The translations under genes were made by a program, and so were the position numbers. Positions 1,401-37,475 of a DNA stretch of 37,518 nt are shown one piece after another. Each line of letters starts with the position of its first letter. Position 1 is the stretch's first letter. Origin of the DNA: a virus; the IMG/VR virus record IMGVR_UViG_3300046665_000375, positions 1 to 37,518 of that record, one strand, 5' to 3'. Under the pieces are notes generated by a model. That model made no database searches and was not told where the DNA came from. It worked only from the letters and a program-made list of their open reading frames with translations.

Positions 1401-2603
1401 TCACTCCGTGGCCTTCGCGCGGCGCTCCGTTCTCCGGTCGTAATGCCGGTGCGTGGTCGCCGGGTTCGCGTGCGCAGCAAAGTCATAAGCGTCCTCGCTC
1501 CGGTTCCGCAGCTTCGTTGTGATCGCGGCCGGGCGGACGTCGGACAGGGCAAAGTATTCCGGGTGCTCGGTGATCTTGTACCCCTCGTATGGCTCGATTG
1601 CGGTCTTGGACTTCCGGGCCGCCCGGTACCGGACCTCCCATTCCCGCTTCGCCGCAAGCGCGGCCGCTACATCGCGATCGAACGAGGCGATCCAGTCGAA
1701 CATCGCATCCGCCCACAACGACCCCCATCCGCTCTTGGTGTAGGGTGTCCCCTTCGCGTTTGCGAACAGGAACAGCCGGCTCGCCGTGTGCGCCTGCTTC
1801 GCCCTGGCCACCACGGTGCGCAGCCGCGGCGACCACTCGCGCAGCTTCGTCACCTCGTCCTCGCCCATCTTCCGCTTGGCGCTGACCACGCGCACGCCTT
1901 CCTTCGCCAGGCCGGCAACGTGGAAGGGCCGCACTTCCGCCGCCCGGAATCCCGTCAGGTAGGTGAACATCCCGGCGCACCCCATGACCTGGTAGCCGGA
2001 CGTCTGCCGGCGGGACCAGAGGTAGAAGCGCACGACCTGGCCGCGGTAGATCGTCCGCACCTTCTTCTCGGTCCTGTTCTGCATCATGTCCGTGAACGGG
2101 TTTGCCTCCATCAGCCCCCAGCGCACGGCGTAGTGGCAGATCGTCGACATCAGCGACAGCTCCTTGTTCGCCTTCGCAGGCGCGCCGGCTTTCGCACGCG
2201 CATCCAGGAACTGGTACCCGTGCAGCGTCTTGAGTGCCATAGGCCGCATGGCGCCGAAGAACTTCGTCAGGTTGGCGTAGGTGCCGGCCCGCACCGCCAG
2301 GCCGTCCTTCGACTGGTCCCGGTAGTGGGTCGGCGCCACCTCGTCGCGGAAGCGCTCGATCATCTCGGCCACGGATCCGGCCACGACCACGCCCTGCTGG
2401 ATGTCGAGCGCCTTGCGCTTCGCGCTGCGCTCCGCATCGGTGATCGCCTTTCGGTCGCCGAGCGGGGCGCTGGCCAAGGTTTCGCTGGTATTGTCCGGAT
2501 GCTGGTAATACCAGGAGACCTTGCGCTTCCCGACCCTTTTATACAGGCGGTCGATCCCGGTGCGCTCCTTACTGGAATGCGCTGAGGTTTGGTGTTTCGG
2601 CAT
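1401..2603 (-). CDS. int: Tyrosine recombinase, prophage integrase
   Basis: About 400 residues if it starts at the ATG at 2603 (MPKHQ). An in-frame ATG at 2648 would add 15 residues; neither start has a strong ribosome binding site, and both overlap the DUF4224 gene, so translational coupling is likely. Catalytic residues of the tyrosine recombinase family are visible: Arg in TGFRAAE (about 220), Lys in SAKRK (about 243), Arg in SDVRPAA (about 357), His in AAHANP (about 378) and the nucleophile Tyr in HRHYDRR (about 388). The usual His of the HxxR box is Ser here, as far as I can align it. Its position next to attL makes it the enzyme for tRNA-His integration. It is the last gene of the leftward early operon. 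Confidence 0.93.
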   Translation of the reverse strand: MPKHQTSAHSSKERTGIDRLYKRVGKRKVSWYYQHPDNTSETLASAPLGDRKAITDAERSAKRKALDIQQGVVVAGSVAEMIERFRDEVAPTHYRDQSKDGLAVRAGTYANLTKFFGAMRPMALKTLHGYQFLDARAKAGAPAKANKELSLMSTICHYAVRWGLMEANPFTDMMQNRTEKKVRTIYRGQVVRFYLWSRRQTSGYQVMGCAGMFTYLTGFRAAEVRPFHVAGLAKEGVRVVSAKRKMGEDEVTKLREWSPRLRTVVARAKQAHTASRLFLFANAKGTPYTKSGWGSLWADAMFDWIASFDRDVAAALAAKREWEVRYRAARKSKTAIEPYEGYKITEHPEYFALSDVRPAAITTKLRNRSEDAYDFAAHANPATTHRHYDRRTERRAKATE

Positions 2604-2805
2604 ATCGCGATCGCGTCGTCTCTTCGGAAATTCCCATTTTCTTGTCATGATAAGCCCGCGCCACCCGCGGCAGTCCGCTGGCGCCGACCTCGAACCGCCA
2701 CCGGTGCGAGGTCAGCCAGTTGACCATCTTGCTGCGCTGGTTCGGCTTGCAGTCGACCAGCTCTGCCAGTTCGTTGGCGCTCAGGTATGCGTTCGCTGCA
2801 TTCAT
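2569..2805 (-). CDS. DUF4224-type small protein, probable integrase partner
   Basis: 78 residues. The start at 2805 is fixed by a near-perfect AAGGAGG seven bases before ATG. The N-terminal half (AYLSANELAELVDCKPN, then KMVNWLTSHRW) resembles the DUF4224 family, whose members commonly sit directly upstream of tyrosine integrases in proteobacterial prophages. The helical, helix-turn-helix-like N terminus and the location suggest an excisionase or directionality role, but this is inference. Its 3' end overlaps the start of the integrase gene. Confidence 0.8.
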   Translation of the reverse strand: MNAANAYLSANELAELVDCKPNQRSKMVNWLTSHRWRFEVGASGLPRVARAYHDKKMGISEETTRSRYAETPNLSAFQ

Positions 2806-3061: not shown

Positions 3062-3252
3062 CTTGTGCTTTCCATATCTTTAGGTTTTCTCATCAGGATC
3101 CGGCTCTGATCGAGCTTTTCTTCGGCGCGCCGACGAAGCGCCTGCTGCAGCTCCAGGTCGAGCCGCATCACCGCTACCTGCTCGAACAGGGCGCGGGCCA
3201 TCTGCTCGTCGCTGCCGTAGAGGGCGCGCGCCTGTTCGAACGTCGTGCTCAT
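3058..3252 (-). CDS. Small helical protein downstream of the ThiF-like gene
   Basis: 64 residues, almost entirely predicted helix (FEQARALYGSDEQMARALFE, then a Leu- and Arg-rich stretch), likely a coiled coil. Its ATG overlaps the stop codon of the ThiF-like gene, and its own stop overlaps the ATG of the next gene. It is therefore tightly coupled to both. No family recognised. It could be an accessory of the PRTRC cassette or an ordinary phage gene; position alone cannot decide. Confidence 0.6.
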   Translation of the reverse strand: MSTTFEQARALYGSDEQMARALFEQVAVMRLDLELQQALRRRAEEKLDQSRILMRKPKDMESTR

Positions 3253-4034
3253 GCGGCCGCCAGGGTGGCAGCCGCCGGCGCCGCAGCCGCATCGCGAACA
3301 TTCAGGGGCCGCATGCTGCCGGTGCGCAGGTTCACGAAGGCTCCGTGCCAGGTCAGCTTCCCGTGGCGGAAAAACTCCCACAGGATTGACAGCGCCGGCG
3401 TCACGATCGACTGGTTCACGAACAGCTCCTGGCGCTCGAGTGCTTCGGCCAGGCCGCAGCTTGGCGTGTCGTCTTCCTTCGCCTGCAGATCGACCAGCTC
3501 GGGCAGCACGTCGTAGGGGCTCGGCAGCAGCACGCTGTCCGCCGGCGCCTGCAGGCCGGCGCGCCCTGCGAATAACTCGCCCAGCAGCACTTGGCCGTCG
3601 GCCGCGCGGTTCCCGAGGTCCATCAGGTAGTGCACGCCCTGGCGCTTCAGCCGGTGGTGGATGTCGTGGCGGGCCCGCGCGCTGTCGACGCAGGCGATCG
3701 CCATGTGGAACTGGCGCTCCCAGCTGTTGTTCTCGTCGTAGCGGCTGTGCACGGCCTCCCAGGCCAGGCCGAAGAAGGCATTGATGCGGTTGACCAGCAC
3801 GTGCGCCTTGCTGGCGCCGACGTCGAAGGCGCCGAACAGCTGCCGGCCCATGTTCGCCTCGCTGACGGTATCCGGGTCGTAGACTTTCACGTGCAGGCCC
3901 GGGTGGCCGAGCGCCGTGATGGCGTGGTTCAGCCGGGCCAGGCCGGTCAGCATCTGGGAGCCGTTGCCGCCGCAGCCGATCAGGGCAATGCGCACCTGGT
4001 GGCTCAGCATGGTGGGGGGCGTGATATGCGGCAT
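3249..4034 (-). CDS. PRTRC system ThiF family protein (E1-like adenylating enzyme)
   Basis: 261 residues with a full ThiF/E1 adenylation domain. The nucleotide-binding loop GCGGNG is at 20-25. The acidic pair and E1 signature VYDPDTVSEANMGRQ spans 51-65 (Asp53, Asp55, Asn61, Arg64). Lys76 lies in GASKAHVLVNRIN and Asp117 in ACVDSARARHD. In E1 enzymes these bind ATP and activate the C terminus of a ubiquitin-like protein. Cys193, in TPSCGLAEALERQELFVN, is a good candidate for the thioester cysteine. The sequence matches my memory of the PRTRC ThiF family. It starts four bases after the stop of PRTRC protein A. Presumed partners are proteins C (Ubl) and B (E2-like). The Ala-rich C-terminal tail is probably disordered. 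Confidence 0.9.
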   Translation of the reverse strand: MPHITPPTMLSHQVRIALIGCGGNGSQMLTGLARLNHAITALGHPGLHVKVYDPDTVSEANMGRQLFGAFDVGASKAHVLVNRINAFFGLAWEAVHSRYDENNSWERQFHMAIACVDSARARHDIHHRLKRQGVHYLMDLGNRAADGQVLLGELFAGRAGLQAPADSVLLPSPYDVLPELVDLQAKEDDTPSCGLAEALERQELFVNQSIVTPALSILWEFFRHGKLTWHGAFVNLRTGSMRPLNVRDAAAAPAAATLAAA

Positions 4035-4038
4035 GCGG

Positions 4039-4812
4039 TCACCCGAAGATCTTCTCGGCCGGCACGTTGATCGCGATGTACAGCCCGAGCACGCACAGGC
4101 GGAACGCGACCGTCGGCTTGTCCTTGTCCAGGTCGCCGAACACGGCCGAGATCTTCACGGCGCCGCAGTCGTCCTCGTCGTCGGTCGTGCTGAAGAACGC
4201 GCCGAGGTGCCCGTGGCTGTGCAGGTCGATCGCGATGCTTTCATCGGGTCCGTGCTCCACCTGGCGGTACTGGATGCGGCTGGCGCTGGCCTCTCCGATG
4301 ATGTCCGGATATTCGATCCGCCACGTCTTCTTCCGGTGGTCCCACAGCAGGCTGGCCGCGGCCTCGATCGGGGCGTCCGTCTTCGCTTTTACCGCGAACT
4401 CCTTCATCTGCGCGAGCGCGCTGCCGATCGAGCCGAAATCCAGCTCGCACTTACCCTGGATGGCGCCGTACGGCATCGCGACGGATTCCTGCTTGGCCAG
4501 CTGGTGGATGTAGTGCAGCCATGGCCGGCGCACCTCGAGGAACAGGCCGCCCTGGGCCAGCAGGAAGCGGTGGCCCGCCTCCTGCAGCGGATGGAAGGGC
4601 GCGTGGCGCGGCACGGCGGCGACCGGCGCCGCGGCCAGCAGGGCCATGTCCATCTGCAGCAGCTCGGCCGGCGCCGTTTCCTCGTCGACGGCCAGCGGCA
4701 GCGGACGGGCCTCGCGCAGCACCGCCTCAGCCGTTTCCAGGAAGGTGGCGAAGGAGCCGCGGGTGATGTCGAGCAGCTCGTCGAATTTGCCGGTGAATTC
4801 TTGCTTGTTCAT
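4039..4812 (-). CDS. PRTRC system protein A (JAMM/JAB metalloprotease)
   Basis: 257 residues; ATG at 4812 preceded by GAGGA at five bases. An intact JAMM zinc motif is visible: His198, His200, then seven residues, Ser208, two residues, Asp211 (DLHSHGHLGAFFSTTDDED). Glu150 in APIEAAASLLW is a possible upstream catalytic Glu. JAMM enzymes cleave isopeptide or peptide bonds after ubiquitin-like domains, so the likely role is processing or removal of PRTRC protein C. The first 120 residues are a family-specific N-terminal region. The gene sits between protein B and the ThiF-like gene in one leftward operon. Assignment rests on the motif and the gene order of the cassette. Confidence 0.9.
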   Translation of the reverse strand: MNKQEFTGKFDELLDITRGSFATFLETAEAVLREARPLPLAVDEETAPAELLQMDMALLAAAPVAAVPRHAPFHPLQEAGHRFLLAQGGLFLEVRRPWLHYIHQLAKQESVAMPYGAIQGKCELDFGSIGSALAQMKEFAVKAKTDAPIEAAASLLWDHRKKTWRIEYPDIIGEASASRIQYRQVEHGPDESIAIDLHSHGHLGAFFSTTDDEDDCGAVKISAVFGDLDKDKPTVAFRLCVLGLYIAINVPAEKIFG

Positions 4813-4827
4813 GTGGTCCTCTTCTAT

Positions 4828-5568
4828 TTAAATGGTGGAGCGGGCGGCGATGCGGACGATCGCCTCCTGCAGGTTTTCTTTCGAATAGACGAGCGCGCGC
4901 TGCATCGCGGCCGGGTCGGGGTTGGCCAACTGGTCACGCCACAGCTGCTGGATCCCGCCCTTGTACTTCACCGCCTTGTCGCGGTTCGGGTGCGTGAAAT
5001 GGCTACGGAAGAAAGCGCTCTCGTAGCTGTGGATAACCTCGGCGCCGAAGGTAGGCGGCAGTTCCACGTTCCCAGTGCAGATCCGGCCGCCGTCCCACAC
5101 GTTGAAGTGCGGAGCGTGGCGCAGGCGCGTGGCAGGTGCCGGGCGAGCATCCTCTGACAGCGCAAACACGAACCAGTCGTTCGGCGTGGCGACAAACACC
5201 AGCGCTGGGTGCGCGGCCTGGCCGTGGCCGTCGACCTTGCCGGAGCCAGCCGCCTTGAACCACGTTGTGCGCAGCTGTGCTGGCGTCCACCATGCGATCA
5301 GGTTCGGCGAGCTGTACAGCAGGTTCGCCGGCAGGAATCCCGAAAATGCTGTGGCCGCGCCGACCGCGCCGGCGAACTTTGCCAGCGCGCCCTTCGACAG
5401 TGGCACGCCTGCGCCGATCACCTTGCGGCCGTCGTGCTGGGAATCGGGCACTACCGGGTGCGAGGTGGCGTACACGTCGCCTCGGGCCGACTCGTACATC
5501 AGCACGGCACCGACAAGGTTCAGCGTCGTTTCGCCGCCGCCGACGATTTCTACAGGATGAAGGCTCAA
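4828..5568 (-). CDS. PRTRC system protein B (E2-like)
   Basis: 246 residues from a TTG start at 5568 that overlaps the stop codon of protein F (TTGA) and is preceded by GGGAG at seven bases. No ATG fits better. Residues about 150-170 read RLRHAPHFNVWDGGRICTGN. A His-x-Asn (His154, Asn156) followed eight residues later by Cys164 closely resembles the HPN...C active-site segment of ubiquitin-conjugating enzymes. PRTRC protein B has been linked to the prokaryotic E2-like families. The inferred role is to accept the activated protein C from the ThiF-like E1. The C-terminal 60 residues are helical and basic. Whether Cys164 is truly catalytic cannot be settled from sequence alone. Confidence 0.85.
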   Translation of the reverse strand: MSLHPVEIVGGGETTLNLVGAVLMYESARGDVYATSHPVVPDSQHDGRKVIGAGVPLSKGALAKFAGAVGAATAFSGFLPANLLYSSPNLIAWWTPAQLRTTWFKAAGSGKVDGHGQAAHPALVFVATPNDWFVFALSEDARPAPATRLRHAPHFNVWDGGRICTGNVELPPTFGAEVIHSYESAFFRSHFTHPNRDKAVKYKGGIQQLWRDQLANPDPAAMQRALVYSKENLQEAIVRIAARSTI

Positions 5569-6620
5569 TATTTTTCTCCCAGCAGCAGGATCAGCTTTTC
5601 GACCAGCACCGCGACCTGAAGCATCTGCTCCGTCAAAGTCATGAACTCGCGCACGCCGGCCGCTGTCATCGGCACCGGGTTCGCGTCGATGAAGTCGGTG
5701 TATTCGCCGCACTGACCGAGGTCATTCAGGTAGTCGTCGATGGTTTCGCCGATGACATCGAACGGCTTCCAGAGCAACACCATGCAGCCCTCGATTGGAT
5801 ACTGGCTGGTGCGGTACACCCCTTTGTCGGCGGGATGCAAGACGAAGCCAGGGCGATTGACCAGCGCATGGATCTGGTCGCACAGTTCGATTACCTGACG
5901 CGCGAGCCGGTCGTTGCCGGCAGCCGCCGCGATCTTTTCCCGGGACAGCGTCCGCTTCGGCGCACATACCCATTCGGGGACTTCGGCGAAGAACACGGCG
6001 CGCGTGACCACGTGTTCGTTCTCCAGCAGCTCCTGAACCGTTTTGTAGCCGCCTTCCTCGCGCCGCATCTCGAGCAGTTCGACGTCGTCGCGCGATTCCC
6101 TCCAATAAGCCTGGTCTGCCCAGTCGAGCGCGGTCCATGGGTTGAACGACTCCGGCAGCAGCAGCACGGCGTCGCGCAGCACCGCCAGGACGGTCTGGCC
6201 GAAGCCCTCCAGCAGCAGTTCCAGACGCTCGATCCCGCGCCCCAATGCGAAGCGCGGCATGTCGTCGCCCATCCGGCTGAAGCAGAACCATGCCGTCGTC
6301 AGCGCGTCGTAGTTCGTATCTTCGATCTGCTGCACCTGCAGGCTCCAGCGGAAAAACTTGCACGGCGTTTTGCGGATCAGCTTCGTCCACCAGTGCGACA
6401 GCGCGCGCTCCGACAACAGCTTCTCCTGCTCGCCGAACACGTCCACCAACAGCGCATTACGGGGCGTGCGCAGCATCGGCGCGGTGATGACGTCCGCTTC
6501 GAGGAGCGCGATCGTCAGCGGCACCGTGAGCGCATCGACGCCCGGGATCACGTAGCGCGTCGGGATCTCGGCCGCCAGCTGCGGCAGGGCCAGTGCGGCG
6601 GCGGGCAGCATGGCGGTCAC
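5565..6620 (-). CDS. PRTRC system protein F
   Basis: 351 residues from a GTG at 6620 overlapping the stop of protein C (GTGA); an in-frame ATG at 6611 is an alternative. It has no motif I can tie to an enzyme. The sequence is rich in Trp and aromatic residues (HWWTKLIRKTPCKFFRWSLQ; NPWTALDWADQAYW) and ends in a long amphipathic helix (MLQVAVLVEKLILLLGEKY). The identification as PRTRC-F rests on overall resemblance and on its place between proteins C and B. It may be a target, scaffold or substrate-selection subunit of the conjugation cassette; this is inference. Confidence 0.82.
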   Translation of the reverse strand: MTAMLPAAALALPQLAAEIPTRYVIPGVDALTVPLTIALLEADVITAPMLRTPRNALLVDVFGEQEKLLSERALSHWWTKLIRKTPCKFFRWSLQVQQIEDTNYDALTTAWFCFSRMGDDMPRFALGRGIERLELLLEGFGQTVLAVLRDAVLLLPESFNPWTALDWADQAYWRESRDDVELLEMRREEGGYKTVQELLENEHVVTRAVFFAEVPEWVCAPKRTLSREKIAAAAGNDRLARQVIELCDQIHALVNRPGFVLHPADKGVYRTSQYPIEGCMVLLWKPFDVIGETIDDYLNDLGQCGEYTDFIDANPVPMTAAGVREFMTLTEQMLQVAVLVEKLILLLGEKY

Positions 6621-7018
6621 GGCAGCACCAGGTGGTTCGAGGACGGCGCCAGGCAGCGCACACCACCGGCGCGGCCGGCTTGGTCGAGGACACGCTTCAC
6701 CTGCTGGGCCAGCGGCTGGCGCGCCTGCTCGGCGGTCAGCACGTTCTGCGGCCGCGCAGCGGCATCGAGGCGGCCGCCGTCGCGCAGGCGCTGCAGCGCG
6801 ACTTCGCGCGCGCTGGCGCCCTTCGTGCCGACGGCGCGGCGGAACGTGTAGATAACCTTGCCGCCCATCTGCTCGGGGCCCTCGATGTCAGCGCTCGTGA
6901 TCTCCGGGTAGACGTTGGCGTAGAAGTCGCGCACCTGCGGCAGGCTGAGCATCTGGCCGGGATCCGGCAGGGCCACGCCGTTGTAGCGGAATTCGCGCGT
7001 GAGGTTCTGGATATCCAT
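6617..7018 (-). CDS. PRTRC system protein C (ubiquitin-like), with C-terminal extension
   Basis: 133 residues, ATG at 7018 after GGAGG at five bases. Residues 1-67 (REFRYNGVALPDPG, then VRDFYANVYPEITSADIEGP, then VIYTFRRAVGTKG) match the short PRTRC-C / prokaryotic ubiquitin-like family, which I remember as about 65-75 residues ending near GTKG. Here a further 66 residues follow, containing a helix (LAQQVKRVLDQAG) and a Gly-Gly at 118-119. If the Ubl must expose a terminal glycine, the JAMM protein A could remove this tail. It is encoded between proteins E and F with overlapping or near-contiguous signals. Confidence 0.85.
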   Translation of the reverse strand: MDIQNLTREFRYNGVALPDPGQMLSLPQVRDFYANVYPEITSADIEGPEQMGGKVIYTFRRAVGTKGASAREVALQRLRDGGRLDAAARPQNVLTAEQARQPLAQQVKRVLDQAGRAGGVRCLAPSSNHLVLP

Positions 7019-7030
7019 GTCGACCTCCGC

Positions 7031-7723
7031 TTAGAACAGGTCGAGCGTGAACTTGTCCACAGGCTCGTCGGCTGCAGGCGCCTCGGGCGCGGCCTCCTTG
7101 ACGACGTCGGTGGGTTCCATTGCGGGCGCCGGCCCGGCCTGCGGCCCAGGTTCGGCACCCGCGCCGTCGCTGACCGGCTGTTGAGCGCTCTGGTCCAGCG
7201 CCGCGTCTGCGCTGGCGCTCGCTTCATCGCCGCCGGCAGGCAGCTGCTCGCTCGTGGCCGTGCTGGCGCTGGCGGGCATCACCTCGTCGGCGGCCGCCGC
7301 GGCTTCGCCAGCCGCCGCTGCCGCGCCCGGCACGGCATCGACCTTCCTCTCTTCGTCGCCGCCTTTCCCGCCGCGCCCCTTGCGCGCCGGCTTGTCGTTC
7401 TTGCCGTCGACCTTGGCTTCCGCCTTCGGCGCGGGCAGGCCCAGTGCGGGTGCTGCAGCGGCGGGCGCGGCTACGCCGGCGGCGTCCTGAGCCTGCTGGA
7501 GCAGGGAGCGCTTCGGCGCCTGCCAGGTCGCGAGCGCAGCGATGAAGTCCGCGTCGAACTCGCCCGGCGTGGCGCGCAGGGACAGCGGCTGCGGCAGCTT
7601 GGCCTTCGTCTTCGTGTCGGCCGGCACAGGCGTGACGTTGACGCGCAGCTCGTCGTCGCCCTCGGCGGCTATGGTGATCATCAGCGTCGCCTGTTTGGCG
7701 AGCGCGTGCAGGGAGGTGAACAT
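7031..7723 (-). CDS. PRTRC system protein E
   Basis: 230 residues; ATG at 7723 preceded by GAGGA at eight bases. The first 85 residues form the conserved part (SLHALAKQATLMITIAAE, then LRVNVTPVP, then PLSLRATPGEFDADF). The rest is a long low-complexity Ala/Glu/Pro/Lys region, probably disordered, closing with a hydrophobic end (VDKFTLDLF). It is the first PRTRC gene transcribed in this operon. No enzymatic motif is seen. Identification is by similarity to the remembered PRTRC-E N terminus and by context. Confidence 0.85.
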   Translation of the reverse strand: MFTSLHALAKQATLMITIAAEGDDELRVNVTPVPADTKTKAKLPQPLSLRATPGEFDADFIAALATWQAPKRSLLQQAQDAAGVAAPAAAAPALGLPAPKAEAKVDGKNDKPARKGRGGKGGDEERKVDAVPGAAAAAGEAAAAADEVMPASASTATSEQLPAGGDEASASADAALDQSAQQPVSDGAGAEPGPQAGPAPAMEPTDVVKEAAPEAPAADEPVDKFTLDLF

Positions 7724-9547: not shown

Positions 9548-10006
9548 TTAAAGCCTTCCGGCTACTACGCGAGTTGGCTGTATTACGACTCGCCCAACAA
9601 TCCCAAGTTGTCCGCTTTTCACGTTAATTGGTTTAAACGTCGAGTTGACGTAATTCAGATACCAATGGCCGCCGCTCTTCACGAGTTGTTGCACACATGC
9701 TTCGCCGTTCCAGTTCACGGCATAGACCTCACCGTTGCGCAGAGCCGTGTCTGCGGTATTAATCACGAGCCAGTCGTCCTCGAAAAACATTGGCTCCATG
9801 CCTTGATCCCTGACGCGAAGCGCGAGTAATCCGGCAGCATCGGAATTGAGTGCACGCAGCGCCGCCGTTGGCACCAGTAACGGCTCGGTCGTCGAGAGGT
9901 CGGACTCAACCTCGAAACCGGACACCCCTGCGCGTAGCCGAAGCGTCACACGACGGACCTCCGTCATCCCGGGCCAGAAAGAAAGGTCGCTTTGGAATTT
10001 GGTCAT
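9548..10006 (-). CDS. Catalytically dead S24-like protein without a DNA-binding domain
   Basis: 152 residues. Residues about 60-110 align with the LexA/CI S24 fold (LLALRVRDQGMEPMFFEDDWLVINT, then GEVYAVNWNGEACVQQLV). The nucleophile Ser of the DSMEP box is Gly69, and the position of the general-base Lys is Gln106, so self-cleavage is not expected. There is no N-terminal helix-turn-helix. Its ATG overlaps the stop of the CI gene (ATGA). Possible roles are a dimerisation partner or modulator of CI, or a decoy for RecA filaments. It could also be a degenerate duplicate, but the frame is intact and well spaced. Confidence 0.75.
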   Translation of the reverse strand: MTKFQSDLSFWPGMTEVRRVTLRLRAGVSGFEVESDLSTTEPLLVPTAALRALNSDAAGLLALRVRDQGMEPMFFEDDWLVINTADTALRNGEVYAVNWNGEACVQQLVKSGGHWYLNYVNSTFKPINVKSGQLGIVGRVVIQPTRVVAGRL

Positions 10007-10707
10007 ACATTCGGACGGAATACGATTTTTGGAATATGCCCAAGCACCAGGTGCATGCCGTCAATCTCGGCGCAGTCGATAATGATGTTGGGGTGATCCT
10101 TGTTCACCGACTCGAAACAGGCTTGATCATCGCGTACCCATAGCAGCCGCTTGATAAGTCGGCGCCCGTCCTTGAGAAGAACGATCACCTCGTCGCTGGG
10201 TTGTGCTTCTCCACATGGATCCACGCCAACGAACTCCCCCGGCAGATAGCGTGGGCTCATGCTCTCGCCGCGGATTCGCAATGCGTATGCGTCCTCGCAC
10301 GTGGCATACCAGTCGAGAAAACCATCTGGGTGATCAGCACTGAAATCGTCGATGTGCAAAAGCCCATCCGTCCCGGCCTGAACACGCCCGACGACGGGGA
10401 TGGTCTGTCGCGATCTTACGATGCGGGGCGCATCCTCAACTTCGCTGTCATCCGGGCGCGCAGCTGGCGAGTGTGGTGTCGGTGCGCCTTCTCCAGTCTC
10501 GAGCCACAGCGGGTCGACGCGAAGGTGGGCGGCGACAGCGCGCGCCTTCGGCGCATCCATTCCATGGTCACCCTTCAGCCAGTTACCAGCAGCCGTATCC
10601 GACACACCAGCGACTCGGGCGAGCTCGGCTTTGGTAACGCGCTTTCCATTTCGGCGCGTCCTCTCACGTTCGATGGCCCAGAGCAATCTTTCCGATAGTA
10701 ATTTCAT
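10003..10707 (-). CDS. CI-type repressor (XRE helix-turn-helix plus S24 peptidase)
   Basis: 234 residues. An N-terminal helix-turn-helix spans about 23-47 (TKAELARVAGVSDTAAGNWL). The C-terminal S24 domain has Ser149 in RGESMSPRYLPG and Lys186 in GRRLIKRLL as the catalytic pair. The linker contains an Ala111-Gly112 bond (VGRVQAGTDG) at the usual self-cleavage site, so SOS induction through RecA is expected. No Shine-Dalgarno is seen before the ATG at 10707, so a leaderless mRNA, as for lambda cI, is possible. It lies divergent from the Cro-like gene with shared operators between. Confidence 0.92.
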   Translation of the reverse strand: MKLLSERLLWAIERERTRRNGKRVTKAELARVAGVSDTAAGNWLKGDHGMDAPKARAVAAHLRVDPLWLETGEGAPTPHSPAARPDDSEVEDAPRIVRSRQTIPVVGRVQAGTDGLLHIDDFSADHPDGFLDWYATCEDAYALRIRGESMSPRYLPGEFVGVDPCGEAQPSDEVIVLLKDGRRLIKRLLWVRDDQACFESVNKDHPNIIIDCAEIDGMHLVLGHIPKIVFRPNV

Positions 10708-32484: not shown

Positions 32485-32511
32485 GCCCACCCTGACCAGG
32501 TGGGCTTTTTT
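32485..32511 (+). terminator. Terminator after the ejection genes, first of two
   Basis: GCCCACC (32485-32491) pairs with GGTGGGC (32499-32505), followed by six T. Confidence 0.85.
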
Positions 32512-32518
32512 ATTTCGA

Positions 32519-32540
32519 CCCCGCTTGTGCGGGGTTTTTT
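32519..32540 (+). terminator. Terminator after the ejection genes, second of two
   Basis: CCCCGC (32519-32524) pairs with GCGGGG (32529-32534) across a TTGT loop, followed by six T. The tailspike start codon lies only 14 bases after the T run, so the tailspike must be made by read-through or antitermination. Confidence 0.85.
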
Positions 32541-32553
32541 GTTAGGACGATCC

Positions 32554-34743
32554 ATGGCAGCCAGTCAGCCAGCAAATTTCAACCTGCAAGAGTTCACCGA
32601 CGCCGGCCAGCTGCTCGTGGGCGGCCGCCTCTACACCTACGCGTACGGGACGACCGCCCAGAAGATCGCCTATACCGATCCGGCCGGCACGGTGCCGCAC
32701 ACGTACACGTCCGACGGGGCGGGCGGCCAATACATCGCGCTGAACGCACGCGGCGAGCTGCCGGCACCGCTGTACCTGGTATCTGGCTCCTACGATATCG
32801 CCCTCAAGCGTGCCGACGGCTCGACGGTTTGGACTCGAAAGGCGGACGGCGTCGAGAACTCCGTGCTTTCGTGGATTGAACAGTTTGCCACCGCGCTCGG
32901 GGCCACGCTGATGGGCTTCATCCAGGCGGGTTTCGGCGCCGTAAAGCGCACCGTCCAGGATAAGCTGCGCGACCGTGTGAGCGCTCAGGACTTCGGCGCG
33001 AAGGGCGACGGAACAGACGACACGGCCGCGATCAAGGCCGCGGCCGCCGCGTTCGTCACGGTCTCGATCCTCCAGAAGAAATTCCTCTACAAGGCGACCG
33101 TGACGGATGACCCGGCGATCTTCAACGTCGAGCACGGCGCGGACTTTGTTGGGATGGGCAACGGCACTACCAGCATCAGTGTGCGCGACGTGGCGGGCAA
33201 TTTCGTTGGATTCCAGCACAACTACAACGAGGAAGCCCAGGTAGCCACGCCGATCACGACCGGCCGTCTTCTGTCTCCGCCGCTGTCGAATAAGGCGCCG
33301 GTCACTTCGGCCGACCTCCTGGCGCATTGGTACAACGACGGCGGCCTGGAATGCGTGCGTGCCGCCGGCGGCGCTATCGGCTCGACGCAGTGGTATTTGT
33401 GGTCGTGGAATTACACGACGAATACTCTCTACGGCGCCTACGACCCGAAACGCCATCCGATTCTGGGCTGGTACCGCGGCGACGATGCGACGGTGCTGGA
33501 CTGGCAGTGCTACTGGTTGCGCGAATACGGCATCAAGGCCGTGATCCTGGTCGCCGAGGACGGCTTCGACACTGGATCGTGGAGCAACCCGCTCGACACG
33601 AACCGCGGCTACTGGATGTACCAGCTGTTCAACAACACGCCGAACTTCAAAGGACTGGGGTACATCTTCAACGGTCCGTTCCAGGGCATCACGGCGGCGC
33701 AGGCAACGGATCGCTGGAACAAGATCACCGACCTGTACCTGGCGCATCCACACTTCTACGTCGCGAACATCGACGGCGGCCTGTACCCATGCATCTACAT
33801 CTTCGACGCTGGCACGATGCGCACGGCGGTGTTCGGCGGCGACGACGCTTTCGAAACGTGGCTGAAGTCCATCGCCACGAAGTTCAAGAATGCCGGCTAC
33901 GCGGGCGTGTGCGTCATGGCGCGCAACGGCACGTATTACACGAACACAGCCGACGCGACCGTGGCGGACCGGTACGCCCGCGCTTTCTACGGTACCGGCG
34001 TGGTGATTTACGAATCGACGTACGCGTGGTCCGGCGCGCCGTTCGGCAACCCGACTACTTACGACGGCTTCGTGAATGCGTTCGACGCGACTTACGCAGC
34101 GAACAAGAACCGCGTGATCCCGAACGTGATGACCTCGCGCGAGAGCAAGTATCACCCGACCGCCTGGACGACCACTGGCAGCACGCCGCAGAAATTCGGC
34201 CAGGTGCTGCGCAAGGCTGTTCAGGCGGTGCGGAACAACACGACGGTGCCGAACATGGTCACGATTTACAACGTCGCGGAGTGGGGTGAAGGTGGGGCCA
34301 GCCTGCAGCCCAATATGGCGGACGGCTACGGCTACCTGGAGCAGTGCCGCACCGTGGACTTTATGTCCATGCAGCGCGGTACCGACCTTTTCACGTACAA
34401 AAAGCAGGTGAACGCCGGGACCAGCATCGCGAACAACAACATCAAACCGATCGGGGACGTTGTCTACATCTACTCGTCGATCGGCATCACGCTCGCGAGC
34501 TTGTACACGGCCTACGCCAGCGGCACCATCGCGCCCGGCTACCCGAACCAGAAAATCAAATTGGTGAACTCGGCCGACGCCGGCAACAACGTCATCAACC
34601 TGTGCGACGTGAGCAATTTCGCGGGCAGTGGCCTGCACCTGAACGCGGCGCAGGTTTCCTTGAACGCATGGAACAGCATCGAGCTGACCTATATCTCCGG
34701 GCGCGGCTGGCAGCAGACCAGCAGCGTCATTGCACCGCTGTAA
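32554..34743 (+). CDS. Tailspike with GH99/WbsX-like glycosidase domain
   Basis: 729 residues. Residues 1-100 are a phage fibre head-binding region (GQLLVGGRLYTYAYGTTAQK). Residues about 145-165 (DRVSAQDFGAKGDGTDDTAA) are the usual entry into a pectate-lyase-type beta helix, but no long helix follows. Instead, from about 250, segments such as HPILGWYRGDDATVLDWQCY, then YGIKAVILV, and later YNVAEWGEGGASLQP with DGYGYLE, resemble GH99/WbsX-like TIM-barrel hydrolases. A beta-rich C-terminal region closes the protein. Likely role: bind and cut host capsule or O-antigen. The Glu in AEWGEG is a plausible catalytic residue. It is the main host-range gene. Confidence 0.82.
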   Translation: MAASQPANFNLQEFTDAGQLLVGGRLYTYAYGTTAQKIAYTDPAGTVPHTYTSDGAGGQYIALNARGELPAPLYLVSGSYDIALKRADGSTVWTRKADGVENSVLSWIEQFATALGATLMGFIQAGFGAVKRTVQDKLRDRVSAQDFGAKGDGTDDTAAIKAAAAAFVTVSILQKKFLYKATVTDDPAIFNVEHGADFVGMGNGTTSISVRDVAGNFVGFQHNYNEEAQVATPITTGRLLSPPLSNKAPVTSADLLAHWYNDGGLECVRAAGGAIGSTQWYLWSWNYTTNTLYGAYDPKRHPILGWYRGDDATVLDWQCYWLREYGIKAVILVAEDGFDTGSWSNPLDTNRGYWMYQLFNNTPNFKGLGYIFNGPFQGITAAQATDRWNKITDLYLAHPHFYVANIDGGLYPCIYIFDAGTMRTAVFGGDDAFETWLKSIATKFKNAGYAGVCVMARNGTYYTNTADATVADRYARAFYGTGVVIYESTYAWSGAPFGNPTTYDGFVNAFDATYAANKNRVIPNVMTSRESKYHPTAWTTTGSTPQKFGQVLRKAVQAVRNNTTVPNMVTIYNVAEWGEGGASLQPNMADGYGYLEQCRTVDFMSMQRGTDLFTYKKQVNAGTSIANNNIKPIGDVVYIYSSIGITLASLYTAYASGTIAPGYPNQKIKLVNSADAGNNVINLCDVSNFAGSGLHLNAAQVSLNAWNSIELTYISGRGWQQTSSVIAPL

Positions 34744-34766: not shown

Positions 34767-35162
34767 ATGAAAGTACCCAACATGAGCGAACCAATTTCCG
34801 GCGCCGCCGCCGGCGTAGCCGGCTGGAAGATCCTCGGCGGCCTCGCCGGCACCGGCGTCGGCGCGGGCCTGGCGGCCTACATCGTCATGTCGATGACGAA
34901 GCCCAAGACCGACCAGGAATGGCGGATTGCGCTGCTGTGCACGCTGGCGGGCTCGATCGGCGGCGGCGCCGCGCTGATCAGCTGGCTCGGGCTGCAGCGC
35001 TGGGCGGACGACGTGTTCGGCCTCGTCGGCATGTTCGGCATCGCGTTCGCATGCGGCCTGCCGGCCTGGCTGATCATCCGTGCGCTGTTCCTGTACATCG
35101 ACAAGAAGCGTAACGCGGACATTACCGAAATCGTCCATGACGTAAAGGAGCTGATTCCATGA
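34767..35162 (+). CDS. Holin
   Basis: 131 residues with about three hydrophobic segments (ILGGLAGTGVGAGLAAYIVM; IALLCTLAGSIGGGAALISW; LVGMFGIAFACGLPAWLIIR) and a charged C terminus. It lies directly before the endolysin gene and overlaps it by ATGA. Two possible starts, Met1 and Met6 (MKVPNMSEPIS), recall the dual-start holin/antiholin of lambda. It would form the membrane lesion that times lysis. Confidence 0.8.
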   Translation: MKVPNMSEPISGAAAGVAGWKILGGLAGTGVGAGLAAYIVMSMTKPKTDQEWRIALLCTLAGSIGGGAALISWLGLQRWADDVFGLVGMFGIAFACGLPAWLIIRALFLYIDKKRNADITEIVHDVKELIP

Positions 35163-35626
35163 CGCCCGACGAATTCATCGACCAGATGCTGCCGGGCGCG
35201 CGCGCCTGCCAGCGTACCGCCGGGATCCCGGTGAGCTTCACGATCGCGCAAGCCGCGCTGGAAACAGGCTGGGGCGCCCACGTGCGCGGGAACAACCTGT
35301 TCGGCATCAAGGCGGACGCCTCCTGGAAGGGGCCGACCGTCGACGTCCCGACGCACGAGGTCGTGAACGGCAAGCGCATTGCCATCGTCGCGAAGTTCCG
35401 TGCGTACTCGAGCTGGGCCGCATGCGTGCAGGACCGCGCCCAGTTCTTCCTGCGCATGCCGCGCTACGCCAGGTGCTTCAACGAGCACACGGGCGCCGGC
35501 TGGGCCCGGGCGGTCGCCGCCGCGGGCTACGCCACCGACCCGGATTACGCGGACACGCTCGTCTCGATCATGGATGGCCGCCGCCTGCAGCGCCTGGACA
35601 CCCTACCGGGCGAGGTGACGCCGTGA
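35159..35626 (+). CDS. Endolysin, glucosaminidase (GH73/FlgJ-like)
   Basis: 155 residues. The catalytic region TIAQAALETGWGAHVRGNNL with Glu35, then FGIKADASWKG and KFRAYSSWAACVQDRAQFF, is typical of FlgJ/GH73 N-acetylglucosaminidases. No signal peptide is seen, so it needs the holin. It cleaves peptidoglycan glycan strands. Overlaps: ATGA with the holin and GTGA with Rz. Confidence 0.92.
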   Translation: MTPDEFIDQMLPGARACQRTAGIPVSFTIAQAALETGWGAHVRGNNLFGIKADASWKGPTVDVPTHEVVNGKRIAIVAKFRAYSSWAACVQDRAQFFLRMPRYARCFNEHTGAGWARAVAAAGYATDPDYADTLVSIMDGRRLQRLDTLPGEVTP

Positions 35627-36120
35627 ATCCGCTGACAACGCTGGAACGCTGGCTGTGCGGCCTGATCGTGATGACCGCGCTGGTCGCCGTCGGCAGCGTG
35701 GCCGTGCACGCGTATGGCGCCCACCGGTTCGACGACGGCCGCGCCGCCGCGATCGAGGAGCGCGCGCAGGCCGACGCCGCGGCCGTGCTGAAGCGCACGC
35801 GTGAGAACGCCACGCGGGCCGGCGACCAGGCGGCCAGCAACGCAACCATTACGGAGAAAAAACATGAAGAGATTCAGCCTGTGCGCGAGCGCATTGTTAC
35901 TCGCCGCGTGTACGTCGGCTCCGCGCTATGTGGTGACCGACCTCCCGCCCCCGCCGAAGCGCAAGGCGCCGCCGGTGGCGACGAAGCCGATTCATCCCGC
36001 AGGCTGGTTCGACCAGACGTTGAGCGAGATCTTGTCGCGCTGAAGCTGGCGGTCGAGGAAGACCTGGCCACTGGCCGCGCATGTCAGGCCTTGCTCAAGG
36101 ACGAAGGGATGGTGCCGTGA
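35623..36120 (+). CDS. Rz: Rz-like inner-membrane spanin
   Basis: 165 residues from a GTG at 35623 that overlaps the endolysin stop; GAGG lies a few bases upstream. One N-terminal transmembrane segment (LCGLIVMTALVAVGSVAVHA) is followed by a helical periplasmic domain with AAAIEERAQADAAAVLKRTR, typical of Rz. It pairs with Rz1, encoded inside it in the +1 frame, to fuse inner and outer membranes in the last step of lysis. Confidence 0.88.
   Translation: MNPLTTLERWLCGLIVMTALVAVGSVAVHAYGAHRFDDGRAAAIEERAQADAAAVLKRTRENATRAGDQAASNATITEKKHEEIQPVRERIVTRRVYVGSALCGDRPPAPAEAQGAAGGDEADSSRRLVRPDVERDLVALKLAVEEDLATGRACQALLKDEGMVP
35864..36043 (+). CDS. Rz1: Rz1-like outer-membrane lipoprotein, nested in Rz
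   Basis: 59 residues, with its own GGAG before the ATG. A lipoprotein signal with lipobox LLAAC is followed by a Pro-rich region (LPPPPKRKAPP), as in Rz1. It lies wholly inside the Rz gene in the +1 frame, the classic nested arrangement. Confidence 0.9.
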   Translation: MKRFSLCASALLLAACTSAPRYVVTDLPPPPKRKAPPVATKPIHPAGWFDQTLSEILSR

Positions 36121-36263
36121 TGGACTTCCATGTCATCACTCCGACCGAGCAACAGCTCGTCATGCAGACGACAGGAGGCGGGCGCGTGCATCAGGTCTGG
36201 CCGGCGCCTCCGTCGTCGCTTCCCGGCCGTGCGGCGCCCGACGCCTCTCCTGTGGTCGCGTAA
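36120..36263 (+). CDS. Small protein after Rz
   Basis: 47 residues from an ATG overlapping the Rz stop (TGATG). The N terminus MDFHVITPTEQQLVMQTTGG looks like a real compact start, followed by a Pro/Ala-rich end. It overlaps the 3' part of a gene on the other strand. No family recognised. Coupling to Rz is the main support. Confidence 0.5.
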   Translation: MDFHVITPTEQQLVMQTTGGGRVHQVWPAPPSSLPGRAAPDASPVVA

Positions 36264-36399
36264 TCACGCGAATTGCTGTCTCGATCGGTATGCCCAGCTC
36301 GCGTAGCACGAGGGCGGCTTCGCGCTGCCCGATGCTGAGCAAGCCGTTCAGCACGGCATCAATGTAGAGCTGCGTTCGACGGTCGATTCGGCGGTCCAT
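36160..36399 (-). CDS. Small helical protein divergent from imuA
   Basis: 79 residues from an ATG at 36399, with GAGG immediately before it (spacing is short). The first 50 residues (MDRRIDRRTQLYIDAVLNGL, then REAALVLRELGIPIETAIRV and ITRPQERR) look like a conserved helical domain; the Arg/Pro/Ala-rich rest overlaps the preceding gene convergently. It starts 130 bases from imuA, so both could respond to the same LexA site. Function unknown. Confidence 0.5.
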   Translation of the reverse strand: MDRRIDRRTQLYIDAVLNGLLSIGQREAALVLRELGIPIETAIRVITRPQERRRAPHGREATTEAPARPDARARLLSSA

Positions 36400-36496
36400 T
36401 CCTCGATTCTGCGCGGTTTGCCCCGCGCAAGTTTGACGCAACGCAATGTTTCCGCGCCGAACACGTTTCTATTTGTGGTCGATCAGTCACTTGATA

Positions 36497-36516
36497 TACT
36501 GTACAAATATACAGTA
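36497..36516. promoter_or_regulatory. LexA (SOS) box before imuA
   Basis: CTGTACAAATATACAG (36499-36514) has the CTG-N10-CAG form, flanked by TA on both sides as in the enterobacterial consensus. TATACT at 36495-36500 is a likely -10, with TTGTGG 16 bases upstream, so LexA would cover the promoter. The imuA ATG is 14 bases further on, with AGGG between. Confidence 0.9.
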
Positions 36517-36529
36517 TTTCAGGGCAACC

Positions 36530-37270
36530 ATGACCACTCTTCCCGATCCCGAAGCGCTCCATCCATCGCTGTGGCGAGCCTCCCAGCTCGCGCGCAGCCA
36601 GACGCGCTGCGTCGACACCGGATTCCCGAGCCTGTCGAATCAGCTGCCGGGCGGCGGGTGGCCGGTGAGCACGATGGTCGACCTGCTGCTAAAGCAGAAC
36701 GGTATCGGGGAGATGCGGCTGCTCGCGCCGGCTCTGCGCATGGTGGCCGAGCGCCGCGTCGTGCTGCTCCAGCCGCCGCATGCGCCGCAAGCGCTCGCCC
36801 TGGCCGCTCTGGGCCTACCGCCGGCATCCGTGATCTGGCTCCGCGCCGAGCGCACGGGCGACATGATGTGGGCGGCCGAGCAGGTGCTGCGCAGTGGAAG
36901 CTGTGGGGCCCTGCTGTTCTGGCCGGATCAGGTCGGATCGGGTAGCGCGCGGTACCGGCCCGTGCGTTCGGACAACCTGCGGCGTCTGCACCTGGCCGCG
37001 CAGGCCGGGGAAACGCTGTTCTTCATGATGCGCCCGCTCGCGTCCGCGACAGACTCGTCGCCCGCGCCGCTGCGCCTTAGTCTGGAGCCGACCAAGGGCG
37101 GGATCAACGTCGGGTTTGTAAAGCGGCAGGGGCCCGTGCGCGACGAGCCGTTATTCCTGCCGATGCAGGTCGGCCCGGTTCGCCACGTGCTTCCAGAACG
37201 GGATCTTGTTGAGGCGGCGACCGAGATCCGGACTTTTGCGGTCGATTCGACCATGGCCGAGCTGGGATGA
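36530..37270 (+). CDS. imuA: ImuA, translesion-synthesis-associated protein (orphan copy)
   Basis: 246 residues from the ATG at 36530, which follows an AGGG site and an SOS box; an upstream in-frame extension would remove the box and is rejected. The sequence has the ImuA pattern: TGFPSLSNQLPGGGWPVSTM, then GIGEMRLLAPALRMVAERRV, then LGLPPASVIWLRAERTGDMM and WAAEQVLRSGSCGALLFWPD. ImuA is a RecA/SulA-related partner of ImuB and DnaE2 in SOS mutagenesis. Here no imuB or dnaE2 follows; a terminator and attR come next. It is therefore a prophage-carried orphan that would act with host partners or alone. Length is normal for the family. Confidence 0.9.
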   Translation: MTTLPDPEALHPSLWRASQLARSQTRCVDTGFPSLSNQLPGGGWPVSTMVDLLLKQNGIGEMRLLAPALRMVAERRVVLLQPPHAPQALALAALGLPPASVIWLRAERTGDMMWAAEQVLRSGSCGALLFWPDQVGSGSARYRPVRSDNLRRLHLAAQAGETLFFMMRPLASATDSSPAPLRLSLEPTKGGINVGFVKRQGPVRDEPLFLPMQVGPVRHVLPERDLVEAATEIRTFAVDSTMAELG

Positions 37271-37391: not shown

Positions 37392-37446
37392 GAATTCTTG
37401 GGGTGGCTGATGGGACTCGAACCCACGACAACAGGAATCACAATCC
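37392..37446. repeat. attR: 55-bp direct repeat within the intact tRNA-His
   Basis: Identical to 1202-1256. It covers the 3' half of tRNA-His, from the anticodon stem to the CCA and seven bases beyond. The phage copy restores the tRNA after insertion. Confidence 0.95.
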
Positions 37447-37475
37447 TGGACTCTACCAACTGAGCTACAGCCACC
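37399..37475 (-). tRNA. tRNA-His (anticodon GTG)
   Basis: 77 bases on the minus strand, starting with the extra 5' G of tRNA-His (GGTGGCTGTAGCTCAG) and ending in an encoded CCA. The anticodon GTG is at 37441-37439, and the T arm contains GGTTCGAGTCC. It is nearly identical to tRNA-His of other proteobacteria, complete and presumably functional. Its 3' half is supplied by the prophage attachment site. Upstream (37491-37518) a short inverted repeat GTCTCG/CGAGAC lies in host sequence. Confidence 0.97.

Follow-up and report, generated by a model that had tools for sequence, protein, structure and literature searches.

Genes of the ImuA family have been described on mobile elements before, as members of whole imuA-imuB-dnaE2 cassettes. 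The imuA2B2C2 genes of pRalta (PMC4151985) share with the locus described here the ImuA family, the CTGT-N8-ACAG LexA box and residence on a mobile element, and the imuABC cassette of ICEPni2 (PMC7466150) shares the ImuA family and the mobile element. Phages are known to carry components of other error-prone systems. P1 HumD is a phage-borne UmuD' homologue acting in mutagenesis (McLenigan 1999, as cited in PMC4713147), and prophage CP5 of Acinetobacter baumannii has damage-induced umuD-rumB close to its integrase (PMC3978071). LexA controls the dinI and antirepressor loci of the Gifsy phages, and likewise Tum of phage 186 (PMC3121763). The role of ImuA in the mutasome is itself still unclear (PMC11791113).

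Here we analysed a window of 37,518 b, a whole IMG/VR record, in which imuA stands without imuB at the end of a prophage. The comparisons below indicate, at the level of sequence, that temperate phages of Massilia-related soil bacteria carry a lone imuA of a separate lineage in a predicted damage-controlled slot beside the integration site.

The prophage and its imuA gene

The prophage is intact between its att repeats. A perfect 55-bp direct repeat, representing the 3' part of tRNA-His, forms attL (1202-1256) and attR (37392-37446), and the integration target is a tRNA-His with a GTG anticodon (37399-37474, minus strand). A tyrosine integrase gene (1401-2648, minus strand; PHROG 1 integrase, 5e-15) adjoins attL, and genes for DnaB, terminase, major head and tail spike are also present. 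An endolysin with a glucosaminidase domain (35159-35626, plus strand; PF01832, 2.6e-30) is followed by an Rz-like spanin (35623-36120, plus strand; PHROG 2466), the final gene of the lysis cassette. The imuA gene (36530-37270, plus strand), whose stop codon precedes attR by 121 bp, does lie between the lysis genes and attR as originally predicted. The CI-type repressor with an S24 peptidase domain (10003-10707, minus strand) has a legible Ala-Gly site and Ser/Lys dyad, which leads us to expect RecA-dependent induction.

Three other features of the prophage deserve mention. A second LexA/UmuD-like S24 protein (9548-10006, minus strand) shares 4 bp with the CI gene; its catalytic Ser is lost (VRDQGMEPM), as, by eye, is the Lys, and the same Ser-to-Gly arrangement recurs in two other imuA phages (L173 and L174), which suggests that the repressor has a conserved partner that cannot be cleaved. 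The left arm holds a PRTRC cassette (3249-7723, minus strand) encoding a ThiF-family protein along with proteins A, B, E and F, each of which scores above its NCBIfam cut-off; PRTRC cassettes are known chiefly from plasmids. A tail-spike-like ORF (32500-34743, plus strand) has a WbsX-type domain (PF14307; 9e-8, above cut-off) after its tail-spike N-terminal region.

The empty site was found in G027, a genome placed in one genus group with Massilia phosphatilytica (G002). The left flank of the window is present there at 92.7% over 1258 bp and the right flank at 100% over 127 bp, with the tRNA-His intact, the right flank directly adjoining and no imuA. The concern that the att borders had been misplaced, with imuB or dnaE2 adjoining the site in a relative free of the prophage, is dispelled by the 55-bp repeat and by this empty site, which has neither imuA nor imuB. 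G059 (Massilia sp. PDC64) has the same attL followed by different sequence, consistent with another element at its tRNA-His. The stretch of about 0.7 kb left of attL (493-1201), which includes a PHROG 874 gene, occurs in G027 and G059 and is largely missing from G002 and G024; this stretch was probably inserted earlier at that tRNA-His.

The 246-aa product matched NF033429, 'translesion DNA synthesis-associated protein ImuA', at 210.5 bits (E 1.8e-62) in an NCBIfam profile search for which the curated cut-off is 150 bits, and it covers the profile in full (1-181). The ORF is a full-length member of the ImuA family (NF033429; ImuA1 of PMC12926913), in agreement with the original prediction. Alignment to RecA pairs GPESSGKTT with KQNGIGEM; GKT is missing, and the Walker A ATPase motif of active RecA recombinase is absent. 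The AlphaFold model (mean pLDDT 79.5) matched RecA with Z 17-18 over ~200 residues and rmsd 3.2-4.0, and by Foldseek at E about 1e-9, so that the protein is modelled as a RecA fold that has lost Walker A. A SulA identity is rejected by a TIGR00623 score of 24.1 bits against a cut-off of 150, and a Pfam search gave no SulA match. A SulA-like inhibitor of cell division, made in SOS so that the cell is kept undivided through induction, would at least draw on a related fold (24 bits for TIGR00623; E 0.0019 for P. aeruginosa SulA, 1ofu) and would fill a vacant role, since no SulA family member occurs in the 62 host-genus genomes. With the SulA score so far under 150 while that of ImuA is 210, and with RecA chains scoring about equal to SulA in the PDB search, we regard such a function as highly improbable.

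An exact LexA box, CTGTACAAATATACAG (36499-36514, plus strand), ends 15 bp before the imuA start and is enclosed by a longer palindrome, ATACTGTA-N6-TACAGTAT (36496-36517). It is the sole exact CTGT-N8-ACAG in the window, where 0.28 are expected. A chance occurrence is ruled out because homologues keep a strict box upstream of imuA: it is present in 43 of 44 IMG/VR relatives and in all five in-clade contigs found later (48/49 together), and its end lies 15-18 bp ahead of the start codon in 45/46 loci, with the consensus TATACTGTATAAACATACAGTATTT. The claim that imuA has an SOS box of its own is borne out by this perfect and conserved motif, and the promoter is a LexA-box promoter at which repression is predicted. 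That a lysogen would make extra ImuA on DNA damage is likely. In having its own promoter, in lying outside the lytic operons but inside the att borders, and in its sporadic presence in related phages, imuA is best explained as a putative prophage moron or lysogenic-conversion gene.

Distribution, ancestry and the proposed cargo slot

Orphan imuA at the attP end is carried by at least 49 further IMG/VR phage contigs, namely 44 viral contigs from the first scans and five later contigs of the same clade. There is no imuB in the 37,518-b window, nor downstream of the mobile imuA in any of the 44 or of the five, and the description of the gene as an orphan therefore holds. Prophage-type imuA was also found in six isolate genomes (G001, G003, G019, G029, G043 and G044), in two copies in G003 and again at tRNA-His in G029, and a Massilia putida plasmid has an orphan imuA as well. 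Compared by blastn, the 9 kb upstream of imuA sort into 22 groups. Viral or prophage backbones make up about 18 of them, and the rest are a plasmid and contig-end cases; the phages carrying imuA thus have many unrelated backbones. In nine of ten continuing contigs tested the first gene past imuA encodes a tyrosine integrase, of divergent families, and imuA is therefore at attP, on the integrase-distal side. The tenth has a GmrSD-type restriction gene (PF03235; L120:10924-11949) directly past imuA, possibly further cargo. Y-family polymerase (Pfam IMS) was found in none of 37 imuA phage records, which may be fragments; a polymerase hidden elsewhere in these phages is rejected to that extent, and any polymerase partner must be the host's. 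S24-type repressors are present in 20 of the same 37 records, as expected for RecA-dependent induction.

In a tree of 49 mobile and 33 operonic ImuA sequences a branch supported at 100/93, recovered in all 200 bootstrap trees examined, separates the mobile proteins from the rest, so that mobile ImuA constitutes one clade apart from the host imuA-imuB copies. Most simply, the mobile gene would have been taken once, without imuB, from an Oxalobacteraceae imuA-imuB operon. Three viral-contig copies fall outside this clade and look like separate captures: L224 and L225 have a lone imuA with a LexA box, and in L226 (5983-8977) a dnaE2-like ORF (738 aa) comes within about 90 bp after imuA, with no imuB between.

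The mobile lineage is under purifying selection, with dN/dS of about 0.22 (core values 0.217 for mobile and 0.252 for operonic ImuA). Of 122 conserved columns in operonic ImuA, 115 have the same majority residue in phage ImuA. The final 34 residues of mobile ImuA are nearly free (dN/dS 0.84). The ImuA tail in host operons overlaps the imuB start, a constraint lost in the phage copy, and for this reason the conservation of the host tail tells little about ImuA and was rejected as an interaction signal. A broken imuA copy in a related viral contig (L229) might be taken to mean that imuA is a mere passenger, either a recently captured host gene useless to the phage or an artefact of the prophage border. 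Against this are dN/dS of about 0.2 across a deep clade, the tight promoter spacing, the many unrelated backbones and the verified empty site; the selection and empty-site data already contradict the passenger explanation, which we consider scarcely credible.

The original prediction that imuA is alone stands with regard to imuB but not with regard to other genes, as a conserved small gene for a 79-aa protein (36160-36399, minus strand) diverges from it. Such a gene is present at 43 of 53 non-operonic imuA loci, a set that includes the plasmid copy and contig-end cases, which are not phage loci, and at none of 88 host imuA-imuB loci (Fisher p about 6e-27). The product has 58-80 aa in most loci and the gene most often starts 91-132 bp from the imuA start. 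These proteins have no match in Pfam, PHROG or INPHARED and represent a new family. A search of viral contigs with this family gave 62 loci, of which 22 also have imuA whereas the other 40 lack it in the available flank, and since the small gene is found in phages of the latter kind its role as an obligate partner of imuA is not supported.

Of the 40 loci lacking imuA, ten show an exact LexA box in the 350 bp that lie upstream of the small gene, against about 0.1 expected by chance as estimated from the shuffle rate. Two families sit in imuA's place, one of about 98 aa (L251, L289) and one PHROG 32761-like (L257, L281, L282). Several members of both have a LexA box 23-33 bp before their start, and neither family is found among the imuA loci. 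Overall, the two small-protein families hold the imuA position at L247, L249, L251, L253, L257, L281, L282, L289 and L290. The replacement families are candidate SOS-controlled phage effectors, and we read the locus as a putative SOS-controlled cargo slot whose occupants, among them imuA, can replace one another.

Possible functions of phage ImuA

The likely host genus has all the native genes: of 62 genomes, 60 gave an ImuA, 61 an ImuB and all 62 a DnaE2. In G027 the native imuA-imuB (3.57 Mb) and dnaE2 (3.60 Mb) are far from the tRNA-His site (0.42 Mb), with 3.1 Mb between imuA-imuB and the empty site. The premise that imuA is ordinarily accompanied by imuB and dnaE2 is only loosely true here, because in Massilia dnaE2 is usually tens of kb away from imuA-imuB.

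The reading we favour, at a probability of roughly 0.5, is that the phage supplies extra ImuA to the ImuB-DnaE2 mutasome of the host. DNA damage in a lysogen would lead to cleavage of host LexA and expression of prophage imuA at the time when ImuB and DnaE2 are being produced by the host. Phage ImuA, whose RecA-like groove is conserved, would then use this groove to dock on the RecA-NT motif of host ImuB and could increase or prolong mutasome activity, so that surviving lysogens, and damaged phage genomes during induction, would be copied past lesions at the cost of mutations. ImuB binds ImuA' via the RecA-NT motif, and this binding is required for mutagenesis (PMC11791113). The proposal is backed by the hosts, as all six isolate genomes with prophage-type imuA also have native imuA, imuB and dnaE2. 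The helix and strand at residues 110-131 have the same consensus in phage and operonic ImuA and lie within the region aligning with the RecA segment that corresponds to the reported ImuB contact. This region is not specially spared (consensus positions shared 0.82, against 0.855 elsewhere in ImuA); a special sparing is thus rejected, and the ImuB-contact argument rests on the overall conservation of ImuA. Several points weigh against a contribution to the mutasome. It is not obvious what the hosts, which already own imuA under LexA, would gain from additional ImuA alone, and the C-terminal tail of phage ImuA is nearly unconstrained although a C-terminal deletion of mycobacterial ImuA' appeared, with a caveat, to abolish ImuB binding (PMC11791113). 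The shared purpose of the slot may also be other than mutagenesis, because its other occupants are small proteins with no link to a polymerase.

One difference from operonic ImuA also speaks against the mutasome reading and bears on a second possibility. After W131, 30 of 48 mobile ImuAs have a loop of 13-14 residues and the other 18 a loop of four; four is also the length in 76 of 78 operonic proteins, the remaining two having five and nine. Residues 133-142 of the window protein are the extension of the phage lineage. The 30 long-loop proteins make up one subclade of a quick tree (SH-aLRT 85) and have an invariant Arg (R141 in the window). As placed by alignment the loop falls at the RecA DNA-binding loop L1, with middling model confidence, and it suggests an altered function of phage ImuA.

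Phage ImuA might accordingly act on RecA itself, binding RecA filaments through the RecA-RecA interface and restraining RecA. A shift in the balance between recombination and co-protease activity would tune SOS strength and prophage induction, much as phage DinI homologues stand under LexA. We hold this to be unlikely, if still a serious contender. The ImuA of Myxococcus is reported to bind RecA and to inhibit it (Sheng 2021, cited in PMC11791113), but that protein is an ATPase type, ImuA3 (PMC12926913), and the window ImuA has no Walker A. The modelled RecA fold and the L1-position loop with its Arg, seen in 30/48 mobile and 0/78 operonic proteins, would suit such a role, yet the loop is missing from 18 of the 48 mobile copies and residues facing ImuB are retained. 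The phage repressor is apparently of the RecA-cleavable kind and small, putatively SOS-controlled proteins also occupy the slot. The Gifsy phages keep dinI homologues under LexA control, but their deletion left induction unchanged in Gifsy-1 and -3 (PMC3121763).

The mutasome and RecA readings are not mutually exclusive. A more specific version of the latter, which seems to us rather doubtful, takes phage ImuA, with its L1 loop and free C-terminus, as uncoupled from ImuB and as an SOS-induced RecA regulator, one of several interchangeable LexA-controlled effectors of the slot. If true, such a regulator would set the strength of damage induction of the prophage or its competitors, and Oxalobacteraceae phages would have a common slot for effectors of this kind, with the new family of small proteins encoded on its other side.

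Relation to known systems

A selected, phage-adapted ImuA without ImuB would provide a natural case of separation of function. It would also tie damage-induced mutation or induction in common soil bacteria to the prophages that they carry, and the cargo slot offers a route to further SOS-controlled phage effectors. ImuA had no match at E 0.01 in 50,697 isolated-phage records and was not found in PHROGs, and the right-hand two thirds of the window phage gave only a 156-170-bp match to isolated phages, in three records. Among the titles, abstract openings and passages of a few papers that were covered, none pairs ImuA with a phage or prophage. Phage-borne Pol V parts (HumD, UmuDC alleles), RecA modulators and plasmid or ICE imuABC are already known; with no earlier report found, the lone phage-borne imuA lineage is new among the collections searched.

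The promoter of the window imuA has a LexA box as in the imuA-imuB(-dnaE2) SOS cassette, but the downstream imuB is missing. Whereas pRalta and ICEPni2 carry the whole cassette, the window imuA travels alone on phages and is part of a separate clade that has a loop and neighbours of its own. CP5 umuD-rumB is likewise an error-prone-repair moron near an integrase, but it encodes a polymerase and not ImuA, and Acinetobacter is without LexA (PMC3978071). The Gifsy loci and 186 Tum resemble it as phage genes under host LexA whose products may meet RecA or the phage repressor (PMC3121763); their proteins are unrelated to ImuA and their genome position is another. P1 HumD is alike in that the phage contributes a single accessory subunit to an SOS mutasome of its host, but it is a different protein of the Pol V system, and it was shown to act in mutagenesis, a role that is predicted for phage ImuA.
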